Positions 39,467 through 44,116 of a stretch of 44,116 nucleotides of DNA are shown piece by piece. The stretch lies in contig CACYYS010000006.1 in the NCBI GenBank assembly GCA_902778725.1, positions 1 through 44,116 on the forward strand. Direction: 5' to 3'. This stretch comes from an uncultured Ruminococcus sp. GTDB lineage: Bacteria; Bacillota; Clostridia; Oscillospirales; CAG-272. The first letter of the stretch is position 1. Each line of letters starts with the position of its first letter. Under the pieces are notes generated by a model. The model did not search any database. It had not been told where the DNA came from and saw only the letters and a list, made by a program, of their open reading frames with translations. The translations under genes and the position numbers were made by a program.

Positions 39467-41491
39467 TTATTTCCCACCTTTGGATGCCTGTGAAGTGCCA
39501 TTACTGCAATATACCGTAACTAAATTAGCGTAATCAGTTTGGTAGGAAGAAATATTGTAATCTTGATATATCACACCCCAAGTTTCTTTTGACGCGTCGA
39601 AATCAATTCTCTCCAAATTGTAACAACTGCTGAAAGCCATTTTCTCAACACTCGTCACACTATTTGGAATCGTAATACTCTGCAAGGCGGTACAGAAAGA
39701 GAAAGCAGAGCGCCCTATGCTCGTCACACCTCTCGGGATCGTGATGTTTTGCAAAGCAGTGCAGCGGTAGAAAGCCTCTCCTGCAATCAATCTCGTTTTT
39801 GGATGCACGGATTTTGTCGCAGTATCCGCTTTTATCAGTACCATATAGGGGTTGCCGTTATTCCCAAGGTATTTTGCATCGTCATAAATACTATAAAAGA
39901 GATTGTTGCAACTTTTAAAGGCATCGTAGCCAACGCTTGTGACGCCATCGGGGATCGTAATACTTTGTAAAGCAGTACAACCCTGAAAAGTTCCATCCTC
40001 AATGCTTGTCACAGTATTTGGAATCGTAATACTTTGTAAAGCAGTACAACCCAGAAAAGCTACCTCTCCTATGCTTGAAACGCCATCGGGGATCGTAATA
40101 CTTTGCAAAGCAGTACAACCCCGAAAAGCCCCAGCCTCTATGCTTGTCACAGTATTTGGAATCGTAACATTTTTCAGTTTCGTACAATCCAGAAAAGTCC
40201 CAGCCTCTATGCTTGTTACACCTTCCGGGATTATCACGCTTGTTACCCCTGTCCCCCTAAAACCTCCAATCCCCGTTACAGCTCTGCCGTTATAACTGCT
40301 AGGGATATTAACAGAAGCAGCTGATCCATAGTATTTTGTAACTTTGTAACCGCCGCCGTTTTCAACTCTCTGGAATTCAAAATCGCTGATATCAATCACT
40401 GTTATCCGGCACTCAGCCGTCATTCCGTTTTTTGTTTTTGCAAAAATCGAGGCGTTCCCCTGCGCCCGCGCCGTAACGATACCGTTCACAACCGCGGCGA
40501 CAGAAGAATTTGAGCTGGACCAGAAAACAGCGGAATCCGCAGCGTTTTCCGGCAAAACAGCACAGGCCAGCGTCACGCTCTCGCCTATTGTCAGCGTGAT
40601 ATTCGATTCGTTCAAGGCAACAGAAGAAACCTCCACACGAGGCGCGCTTGTCTCTATCGGCTGCGTTTCCTCCGGTCTCGGAGCAGGCGGCTGCGTCTCA
40701 ATAGGCTTGGTCTCCCGACCGGGAGTCGGCGGCTGCGTCTCGACCGGCTTTGTCTCCTGACTTGAAATCGGCGAGACCGTTTCCGGCGGAAGTTCTTCTT
40801 GACCATTTTTTGCAATCACCTTCACGTTGCACATAGCGATCTTCCCGTTGCCGCTTGCCGCTATTACAGTTGCCGTCCCGGGCGAAACCGCTTTCACCAC
40901 TCCGTTGGAAGCGGTTGCAACGCCGAGGGCGGAACTGGTCCAGGCGACCTCTTTTTCGGTCGCGTTTGACGGTGCGAACCCGACGTGGAGCGTATAGGTT
41001 TCCCCCTCCTGCAATGTCAATTCCGTTTCAGAGAGAAAAAGCGATTCAACAGGAATCATCGCAGCTTCCTGCACAGGGGAGGTCTCTTGTGTGATACCCG
41101 GTCTGGTTGGGGTTGTTGTAACATCACTTTTTCTGCTCTCGGATGATTCGGATTTTGAAGAAAGCCGCTCGTACTCCAGTGTCATACTGCCAGCGCCGGT
41201 CAAGGTAACGTCGCCCGTAAGGGCAAGCCGGTCTCCCTTTATGACATAATCATAATCAAGGGATTTGGACAGCCCAAAAAAATCCGTTTCAATATGCAGT
41301 TTCCCGGCGTCCGTTGTGTAAGTCCCTGTGTAATTCAGCGTATTGATATTGGCAAAAAAAGTCCCGTCGTCATTGAACTGCCATGTATTGGCGCCGAACG
41401 CCCATTTGCCGACCAAGCTCTCACCGGAACAGGAAGAAAACAGAATTGCCGTTATACAAATAACAAAAAGAACAAACCATCTCTTTTTCAT
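39467..41491 (-). CDS. BspA-like leucine-rich-repeat lipoprotein with Big_2 domains
   Basis: 674 residues. Lipobox LFSSC (Cys21). A lipocalin-like beta region follows (about 25-110, LVGKWAFGANTWQFNDDGTF). Two bacterial Ig-like (Big_2) domains lie at about 150-225 and 290-365 and are joined by a Pro/Glu/Thr linker with TKPVETQPPTP-type repeats. The C-terminal half has LRR_5 units of 23 residues (CTALQSITIPNTVTSIE). Surface adhesin or protein-binding role is likely. It is AT-richer than the core genes. The gap to the upstream orphan gene is 26 bp, so they share the promoter at 42176-42205. Confidence 0.9.
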   Translation of the reverse strand: MKKRWFVLFVICITAILFSSCSGESLVGKWAFGANTWQFNDDGTFFANINTLNYTGTYTTDAGKLHIETDFFGLSKSLDYDYVIKGDRLALTGDVTLTGAGSMTLEYERLSSKSESSESRKSDVTTTPTRPGITQETSPVQEAAMIPVESLFLSETELTLQEGETYTLHVGFAPSNATEKEVAWTSSALGVATASNGVVKAVSPGTATVIAASGNGKIAMCNVKVIAKNGQEELPPETVSPISSQETKPVETQPPTPGRETKPIETQPPAPRPEETQPIETSAPRVEVSSVALNESNITLTIGESVTLACAVLPENAADSAVFWSSSNSSVAAVVNGIVTARAQGNASIFAKTKNGMTAECRITVIDISDFEFQRVENGGGYKVTKYYGSAASVNIPSSYNGRAVTGIGGFRGTGVTSVIIPEGVTSIEAGTFLDCTKLKNVTIPNTVTSIEAGAFRGCTALQSITIPDGVSSIGEVAFLGCTALQSITIPNTVTSIEDGTFQGCTALQSITIPDGVTSVGYDAFKSCNNLFYSIYDDAKYLGNNGNPYMVLIKADTATKSVHPKTRLIAGEAFYRCTALQNITIPRGVTSIGRSAFSFCTALQSITIPNSVTSVEKMAFSSCYNLERIDFDASKETWGVIYQDYNISSYQTDYANLVTVYCSNGTSQASKGGK
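39950..40210 (-). repeat. 69-bp tandem repeats inside the leucine-rich-repeat gene
   Basis: Nearly identical 69-bp units (23 codons) recur at about 39954, 40023, 40092 and 40161. Two variants alternate (IPNTVTSIE and IPDGV-SIG types), giving a 138-bp higher-order repeat. Near identity at DNA level implies recent duplication or gene conversion. Confidence 0.85.
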
Positions 41492-42741: not shown

Positions 42742-42756
42742 CCCAAGGATCCGCAA

Positions 42757-42802
42757 AAAAAAACGCGGGGGCTTTCGCTATGCGGAAGCCCCCGCGTTTT
42801 TC
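42757..42802. terminator. Strong bidirectional terminator at the hprK 3' end
   Basis: Stem AAAACGCGGGGGCTT/AAGCCCCCGCGTTTT, A run before and T run after. Serves hprK on the minus strand and any read-through on the plus strand. Confidence 0.93.
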
Positions 42803-42807
42803 CCTTT

Positions 42808-43770
42808 TTACCGGTCCCCGTCCCCGTCGTCCGCGGCGTCGGTTTTCTTTTCATAGCGCTTCATCAGCCGCTTGTTGAACTCCACGGCGGTGTCGTAGCC
42901 CATCTTTTTCTGGCGGTTGTTCATCGCCGCGATCTCGAGGATCACGGCGAGGTTCCGCCCGGGACGGACGGGGGCTGTGATGGTCGGGACCCGGATGCCG
43001 AGGATCTCGGTCGTCTCGGTATCGAGCCCGAAGCGGTCATACATCTTGTTCTGCTCCCAGTGCTCGAGCTTGATGATCAGGTCGATCTTTTCGGTCATTT
43101 TGACCGCGCCCATGCCGAAAATGCGGCGCACGTCGACGATCCCGATGCCGCGCAGCTCCACGTAGTGCCGGATGATCTCCGGCGCGGAGCCGACGAGGGT
43201 CTTGGCGGAGACCCGCTTGATCTCCACGGCGTCGTCCGCGATCAGACGGTGGCCGCGCTTGACGAGCTCGATCGCCGTCTCGCTCTTGCCGATGCCGCTG
43301 TCCCCGAGGATGAGGATCCCCTCGCCGTACACCTCCACGAGCACGCCGTGCCGGGTAATGCGCGGGGCGAGGCTGACGTCGAGGAAGGCGATCAGCGCCG
43401 CCATGAAGCTGCTGGTCGTATCGGCGGTGCGGCAGAGGGGCACCTTATAGCGCTCCGCGCAGAGGCGCATCTCCCCGAAGATCTCGATGGAGCTGGTCAC
43501 GATCACGGCGACCGGCTTGTGCGCGAAAAAGGCGTCCAGCCGCGTCATCCTCTCCTCGGGGTCCATCTCCTTCAGATAGTTGTATTCCACCTTGCCGATG
43601 ATCTGGATCCGCTCGCTCTCGAACCGGTCGAAATACCCGACCAGAGGCAGCCCCGGGCGGTTGACCGCCGGGCAGGAAACGCGGATCTCCTCCGCCGGCG
43701 CGGGCAGCCAGATCTCCTCCAGATTCAGTTCCTTGATGATACGGTCAAGGGATTCCGTGATCTTTTCCAT
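42808..43770 (-). CDS. hprK: HPr kinase/phosphorylase
   Basis: Phosphorylates and dephosphorylates Ser46 of HPr and so controls carbon catabolite repression in Bacillota. 320 residues: N-terminal domain to about 130, then the catalytic domain with His141, Walker A GDSGIGKS (156-163), LIADDAV, and the HprK signature region VELRGIGIVDVRRIFG (203-218). The Lys/Asp-rich C-terminal tail is longer than usual. It has a consensus promoter 28 bp upstream and is monocistronic in view. It fits the sugar importer nearby, which would be under catabolite control, but no clear cre site was found. Confidence 0.96.
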   Translation of the reverse strand: MEKITESLDRIIKELNLEEIWLPAPAEEIRVSCPAVNRPGLPLVGYFDRFESERIQIIGKVEYNYLKEMDPEERMTRLDAFFAHKPVAVIVTSSIEIFGEMRLCAERYKVPLCRTADTTSSFMAALIAFLDVSLAPRITRHGVLVEVYGEGILILGDSGIGKSETAIELVKRGHRLIADDAVEIKRVSAKTLVGSAPEIIRHYVELRGIGIVDVRRIFGMGAVKMTEKIDLIIKLEHWEQNKMYDRFGLDTETTEILGIRVPTITAPVRPGRNLAVILEIAAMNNRQKKMGYDTAVEFNKRLMKRYEKKTDAADDGDGDR

Positions 43771-43875: not shown

Positions 43876-43903
43876 TTGCAAAATCGGAAAAATATGTTAT
43901 AAT
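43876..43903 (+). promoter_or_regulatory. Promoter of the first repeat unit
   Basis: -35 TTGCAA (43876-43881), 16-base spacer, extended -10 TGT-TATAAT (43895-43903). It fires into the structured repeat, away from hprK. Confidence 0.7.
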
Positions 43904-43991
43904 ATACGCAGAAAGTCTTGCTGCGCAAGCCTTTAGGCGTTCGCCTCCGTGCGCTTTGCGCGCGCTGCGTTATTGACGGCTTTGCAAAAAT
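43893..43991 (+). repeat. Direct repeat copy 1, candidate small RNA gene
   Basis: 99-bp unit starting TATG-T-TATAAT. Downstream hairpins: CTTGC-TGC-GCAAG (43917-43929), AGGCG-TT-CGCCT (43935-43946), CGTGCGC-TTT-GCGCGCG (43948-43964, one T-G wobble). A terminator hairpin follows at once. No ribosome site plus ORF on the plus strand makes it a likely non-coding RNA of about 105 nt (inference). Confidence 0.7.
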
Positions 43992-44015
43992 GCCCTTGCG
44001 AGCAAGCATTTTTGC
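43984..44015 (+). terminator. Strong intrinsic terminator of repeat copy 1
   Basis: Outer stem GCAAAAATGC/GCATTTTTGC (43984-43993, 44006-44015) with inner CTTGC-GA-GCAAG: a 15-bp hairpin, A-rich on the left and T-rich on the right. Confidence 0.85.
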
Positions 44016-44017
44016 TT

Positions 44018-44116
44018 TATGGTATAATATACGCAGAAAGTCTTGCTGCGCAAGCCTTTAGGCGTTCGCCTCCGTGCGCTTTGCGCACGCTGCGTTATTG
44101 ACGGCTTTGCAAAAAT
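44018..44116 (+). repeat. Direct repeat copy 2, cut by the window end
   Basis: Identical to copy 1 at a period of 125 bp except two bases: G for T at 44022 (the free base of the extended -10 TGN-TATAAT) and A for G at 44087 (T-G wobble becomes T-A in the third hairpin). The terminator hairpin is expected just past the edge, since the last bases GCAAAAAT match its left arm. Confidence 0.8.

Follow-up and report, generated by a model that had tools for sequence, protein, structure and literature searches.

The window (the whole 44,116-nucleotide stretch of DNA that was analysed) ends in a tandem repeat, of which two copies of 99 nt each, 98% identical and 125 bp apart from start to start, are located at 43893–43991 and 44018–44116. 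A divergent neighbouring gene outside of the repeat (42808–43770, minus strand) reads as an HPr kinase/phosphorylase from its protein sequence. The repeat, like all its parts described below, lies on the plus strand. It is preceded by a host promoter -35 element, TTGCAA (43876–43881), 16 bp upstream of the left extended -10 (TATGTTATAAT, 43893–43903) that belongs to the host promoter at the insertion point; the same -35 is kept at two loci of sister species (L240 and L242), where it stands directly before a prsA-like gene. The window also contains a 138-bp tandem repeat with a 69-bp half-unit (39935–40231), probably within a repeat-protein gene, and a strong symmetric hairpin between two genes (AAAAAACGCGGGGGCTT..AAGCCCCCGCGTTTTT, 42755–42801) that is likely a two-way terminator.

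A first-pass annotation, made from the sequence alone, had read the two copies as a self-contained small RNA gene repeated in tandem. Its description of the copies and their period was borne out, and the extended -10 (TGNTATAAT) at the start of a copy, the three hairpins, and the terminal A5/T5 hairpin (43984–44015) were all found in the sequence. The copies differ at just the two positions that had been reported: a T to G change at the free base of TGN (43897 compared to 44022), and a G to A change in the third hairpin, by which a T-G pair becomes T-A with pairing kept. The annotation overlooked a fourth stem, formed by ACGCAG (43906–43911) and CTGCGT (43965–43970), which encloses the three hairpins and so gives a cloverleaf.

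Based on empty sites in related genomes, unit 1 of the element consists of the 119 bp between two -10 hexamers (43904–44022); the covariance model R1, described below, matches it at 43904–44017 with 111.9 bits. The cloverleaf (43906–43970), defined by covariation and by minimum free energy (MFE) folding with DNA parameters, is made up of the basal stem (43906–43911/43965–43970) and hairpins at 43912–43934, 43935–43946, and 43948–43964. It is followed by a linker of conserved alignment columns (TATTGACGGCTTT, 43971–43983) and by a right-end hairpin, GCAAAAATGC-CC-TTGC..GCAA-GCATTTTTGC (43984–44015), again defined by covariation and DNA-parameter MFE folding, which likely doubles as an intrinsic terminator. 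The right end, TTTATGG plus the -10 TATAAT (44016–44028), is at the same time the left -10 of unit 2. Unit 2 (44029–44116) is cut by the contig end and continues on another contig of the same genome (G000:C77), which opens with a 64-bp exact overlap of the unit; there it ends TTTATGGTATACT and is followed by the prsA-like gene. The array runs beyond the window, as had been supposed. When the contig was extended in this way to count the units, as the annotation had proposed, the most likely number was two, since the joined flanks match contiguously in two sister species.

Distribution of the unit

A nucleotide search located the unit at five places in the same genome, and R1, which was built without the TATAAT boxes, also finds this genome's units. 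The covariance-model search of related genomes that had been suggested as a check found units in dozens of genomes: 35 of 394 across the order, 39 of 391 (approximately 10%) across the class Clostridia, and 3 of 398 in a phylum-wide sample, the window's own genome among them. Recurrence at five places in one genome and in dozens of others excludes a chance origin of the repeat, and what had been offered as "perhaps dispersed" is indeed so. The distribution is patchy, with 1 to approximately 13 copies per genome, and copies occur singly or as tandem arrays of two or three units. Searching with the exact right-end pattern gave matches in assemblies titled Clostridia, many of them from animal guts; one pattern searched against viral contigs had no exact match. 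No Rfam family was matched by the unit at gathering or relaxed thresholds, consistent with the annotation having recognized no known RNA family.

Units are located at the -10 boxes of unrelated promoters

When 162 distinct copies were aligned, their outer flanks were found to be unrelated except at orthologous loci and in a few subfamilies, and the bases preceding the unit formed a -10 hexamer in nearly all. For the 114 first units with a recognizable left -10, a TTGACA-like -35 (a match at four or more of the six positions) was present at exactly 17 bp in 46%, compared to approximately 5% at other offsets. The left hexamer was preceded by TG in 88% of cases, compared to 18% of 707 other TATAAT sites from the same loci, and the third base of TGN was G in 70% compared to 34% of control TGN sites. 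The -35 frequency of 46% at element sites is that of element-free TGN-TATAAT sites (43%), so this measure does not separate a targeting of active promoters from a targeting of the sequence TRTGNTATAAT.

The right end of the unit reads CATGGTATAAT, an extended -10, and is then typically followed by the host leader, ribosome binding site (RBS), and start codon; an RBS and open reading frame were found downstream of 95 of 138 terminal units, compared to 24 in a reverse-strand control. The downstream genes are mutually unrelated, and include those for enolase, DXP synthase, trigger factor, ParA, a GTPase, alcohol dehydrogenase, a PPIC-type (prsA-like) foldase, and an amino-acid-kinase-family gene that reads as pyrH.

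Several variants were observed among the copies. Many arrays (L055, L060, L083, L113, L116, L125, L162) end in a truncated last unit that extends 10 to approximately 80 nt past the final -10. At L110, L142, L143, and L109, copies from different families have long flanks in common (upstream GTTTGCCGATTTTGATATTTACATA, downstream CTGGTAACGGG), and judging from these sequences the copy may ride inside a larger repeat. A subfamily (L145, L150, L154, L155, L157) starts TTGACACATAC and ends CTGGTAAAATGATTT, with an extra 30 nt or so downstream that is common to several genera, so that the unit looks longer there.

Filled and empty sites

Empty sites were sought by joining the flanks of a copy and searching relatives for contiguous matches, the genomes compared being assemblies with one strain per species. 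Comparison of filled and empty sites at eight loci placed the insertion at the TATA(A) of a promoter, with a -10 box left on both sides. Two loci (filled/empty pairs L129/L175 and L132/L178) carry the element in G468 but not in G436, a genome of the same genus, at 95–98% identity; at L132 the duplication is 17 bp instead of 5–6 bp. Within the window's family, nine genomes lack the insertion at L051, and L093 and L044 have empty sites in several genomes. Another copy from the window genome (L005) has an empty site in the sister species G003. In genome G354, a non-coding region (L045) is present in several copies, of which one is filled and another empty: the empty junction reads TTGTGC-TATAAT-GATGG and the filled one TTGTGC-TATAAT-[element]-CATGG-TATAAT-GATGG. 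An assignment of the L045 locus to an rRNA operon was dropped, there being no rRNA match.

At the window locus, the flanks joined by way of C77 match sister species G003 and G002 end to end, and in both of these the -35 TTGCAA and a -10 TATACT are found directly before the PPIC-type gene. The array of the window genome ends on C77 in the same TATACT. The empty sites of L051 are mostly TATAAG; at the filled site this G is retained in the right box, and the left box ends in T instead. These matches to the empty sites indicate that the right -10 box is the host's. The L051 boxes additionally indicate that the join occurs after TATA or TATAA, with the last base or bases of the left hexamer contributed by the element and those of the right hexamer by the host. 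A target-site duplication is present, TATA(A)/TATAAT being found on both sides of the element and as a single copy at empty sites. These comparisons show that the inserted block starts immediately past TATA(A), runs to ...CATGG, and has a second TATA(A) behind it. To its left remain the host -35, spacer, and extended TG, and to its right the host leader and gene. The comparisons also show that the copies are dispersed and that their presence varies between sister species.

The conserved fold appears to be selected as DNA

The pairing consists of a basal stem around three hairpins, then a linker (ATTGACGG), and then a long hairpin. In two sets of copies, 94–95% of cells were paired and double-sided changes were found at 32 of 39 pairs in one set and 38 of 39 in the other, values reached by none of 500 shuffles. 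The hairpin sequences drift freely between genomes while pairing is kept, and the cloverleaf and long hairpin are conserved by Watson-Crick compensation.

Three observations bear on the nature of the folded molecule. G-T makes up 1.6–2.1% of the pairs and is no commoner than A-C (40 compared to 57 cells, and 65 compared to 59). As a control, tRNAs from the same loci had 8.6% G-T, with 34 G-T and 0 A-C, although this control is small (19 tRNAs) and A-C is disfavoured by the model with which ARAGORN finds tRNAs. The basal stem covaries at bases 3–6 after the hexamer, upstream of the transcription start expected from the usual spacing. MFE folding of 150 copies recovered a median of 0.90 of the conserved pairs with DNA parameters compared to 0.79 with RNA parameters (P ~1e-7, an optimistic value given that the copies are related); unit 1 of the window folds into the cloverleaf with DNA parameters and does not with RNA parameters. 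The rarity of G-T, the covariation of the basal stem upstream of the start, and the better recovery with DNA parameters suggest that the fold is selected as DNA. By these computations the element has folded-DNA hairpin ends, a feature of REP and IS200/IS605 elements.

A probable mobile element and its possible mechanism

The unit is a previously unlisted mobile element of approximately 120 bases from gut Clostridia, not simply a duplicated small RNA gene. We consider it likely that this element is short, non-coding, and presumably non-autonomous, and that it inserts into the -10 hexamer of sigma-A promoters. The active form would be folded DNA, single-stranded or cruciform, which a nuclease or recombinase would probably excise or copy and then join on the 3' side of TATA(A). 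A -10 box opened by RNA polymerase may be a preferred site; the melted -10 of the open promoter complex is a plausible entry point, and recognition of TRTGNTATAAT would fit the data equally. Tandem arrays could arise by re-insertion at the TATAAT of the element's own right end, and a right end joined to a left end would read ...CATGGTATAAT-ATACGCAG.... With an extended -10 at its right end, the element leaves the downstream gene with a promoter, and this would account for the tolerance of insertions before housekeeping genes. RNA from the old promoter would probably be terminated at the right-end hairpin, and the unit probably gives rise to a short terminated transcript as a by-product. A simple cut-and-join predicts neither the duplication of 17 bp at L132 nor the frequent truncation of the last unit; these may reflect remnants of deleted tandem units or copying that stopped early.

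The IS200/IS605 Y1 transposase and the IS110 DEDD recombinase were considered as movers, and both were rejected for lack of association. Y1_Tnp (PF01797) was found in 10 of 26 element-bearing and 8 of 25 element-free genomes, and was not found in G468, G436, G032, G054, or G000, some of which have recent insertions. The IS110 DEDD recombinase was found in 3 of 26 element-bearing and 5 of 25 element-free genomes, and IS110 transposases were not found in genomes with recent or many insertions. A search of 14 genomes for a larger autonomous relative sharing the right end matched four, and those compared were ordinary units, one matched unit having been missed by the covariance model; this is a weak negative, the pattern being too specific for the other ten genomes.

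Alternative explanations

A small RNA gene acting in trans, present in tandem duplicates and at dispersed sites, would account for the extended -10 in front of the unit, the terminator-like end hairpin, and the strongly conserved pairing. The annotation that proposed it was correct about the repeated unit, its tandem and dispersed occurrence, the extended -10, and the conservation of pairing; the self-contained gene is the part that is not supported. The left promoter is that of the host site, with a -35 and spacer that vary between loci, so that no promoter of its own travels with the unit, and at the empty sites of relatives the same promoter drives the next gene with no unit in between. In its conserved pairing the unit behaves like DNA, with almost no G-U, and part of the basal stem is upstream of the expected start site. 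The hairpins drift freely if paired, and no conserved unpaired seed is evident outside the linker. We therefore regard a small RNA gene as quite improbable. A cis-acting leader or attenuator that regulates the downstream gene is suggested by the position of most copies between promoter and gene and by a right-end hairpin that could terminate transcription, but the downstream genes are functionally unrelated, orthologous promoters in relatives lack the element, and the second -10 bypasses the hairpin, making this role very improbable indeed.

Two other explanations concern how the element spreads. It could be a REP- or PATE-like derivative of IS200/IS605, with hairpin ends and moved in trans by a Y1 (HuH) transposase that cuts 3' of TATAA. 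The absence of terminal inverted repeats, the end hairpins, the fixed short target on the left, and the repetition of this motif at the right end are consistent with such an origin, as is the precedent of REPs as possible non-autonomous elements processed by the HuH protein TnpA-REP (PMC8266576). Against it are the similar frequencies of Y1_Tnp in bearing and free genomes and its absence from the five genomes named above, and we give this explanation some weight without favouring it. Gene conversion by the host, or template switching from one -10 region to another, could also spread copies and would need no dedicated enzyme, and the direct-repeat ends, truncated terminal units, and 17-bp match at L132 are in favour of this; the homology, however, is just 5–9 bp at most targets and insertions are otherwise precise across unrelated loci, so we think it unlikely. 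The reading that we prefer remains a mobile DNA element that inserts at the -10 hexamer.

Other hairpin families and significance

A second hairpin family, unrelated in sequence, was observed in G032 (L167, L266, L168, L033), where it lies between -10 boxes with a period of approximately 104 bp and the layout TATAAT|AAAGAACAG..CTGTTCTT..GAAAAAAGCG..CGCTTTTTTC..GGTGCGAAATTCATGG|TATAAT. It has the right end TTCATGGTATAAT in common with the window family and occurs in tandem and mixed arrays, which suggests that this kind of element may be broader than the window family. A third repeat of approximately 125 bp, seen in the upstream flank of L130 and present in many copies per genome in G468, G436, and G585, has palindromes around GGTATAATATACGC and ends GTTTATGGTATAAT. 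As a tentative proposal, there may be a new class of folded DNA cassettes, with at least two families sharing the right end TTCATGGTATAAT, that enter the melted -10 by way of a recombination system not yet described, each bringing a replacement -10 and accumulating harmlessly before essential genes.

An element that homes to and rebuilds the -10 box, rewiring housekeeping promoters in many gut Clostridia, would open a new way for promoters to evolve and add a new specificity of insertion. With filled and empty versions of the same sites at hand, the mechanism can be tested directly, and the covariation at the DNA level serves as a useful case in which folded DNA may pass for a structured RNA.

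Comparison with known systems

A literature search gave no relevant account of MITEs that target promoters or of a matching RNA motif, a negative that carries little weight given the limited library. Pneumococcal BOX elements are modular, dispersed intergenic repeats with hairpins near genes. The element resembles them in each of these respects and differs in sequence and host; to our knowledge, insertion into a -10 box has not been described for BOX. MITEs such as Correia elements or RUP are small, dispersed, non-coding, and promoter-carrying, with a duplicated target site, all of which holds for the element. Its duplicated TATA(A), however, belongs to a specific promoter box, and inverted repeats are lacking at its termini: by inspection, ATACGCAGAAAG at the left does not match CCATGAAGCAAAA, the reverse complement of the right. 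For want of such repeats it does not qualify as a typical MITE.

PATEs, derived from IS200/IS605, have no terminal inverted repeats, have structured ends, and insert 3' of a fixed short motif. The element likewise has structured ends without terminal inverted repeats, and its target motif recurs at the right end, but it carries no internal IS remnant or linked transposase, targets the -10 hexamer, and has a cloverleaf at its left end. No GTAG-type guide is present 5' of the hairpin in the element, where the conserved linker is found. REP/BIME elements with TnpA-REP are similarly short, dispersed palindromic DNAs, intergenic and often clustered, and are regarded as non-autonomous elements whose single strands are processed in folded form (PMC8266576). 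The element differs from these in being a cloverleaf plus hairpin of approximately 120 nt rather than a palindrome of 20–50 nt, in its location within -10 boxes, and in showing no association with Y1 transposase genes. With its folded DNA, fixed target motif, and lack of inverted repeats, the element works most like REP or IS200/IS605-derived elements, and we place it among the dispersed non-autonomous hairpin elements, with the -10 box as a new target.
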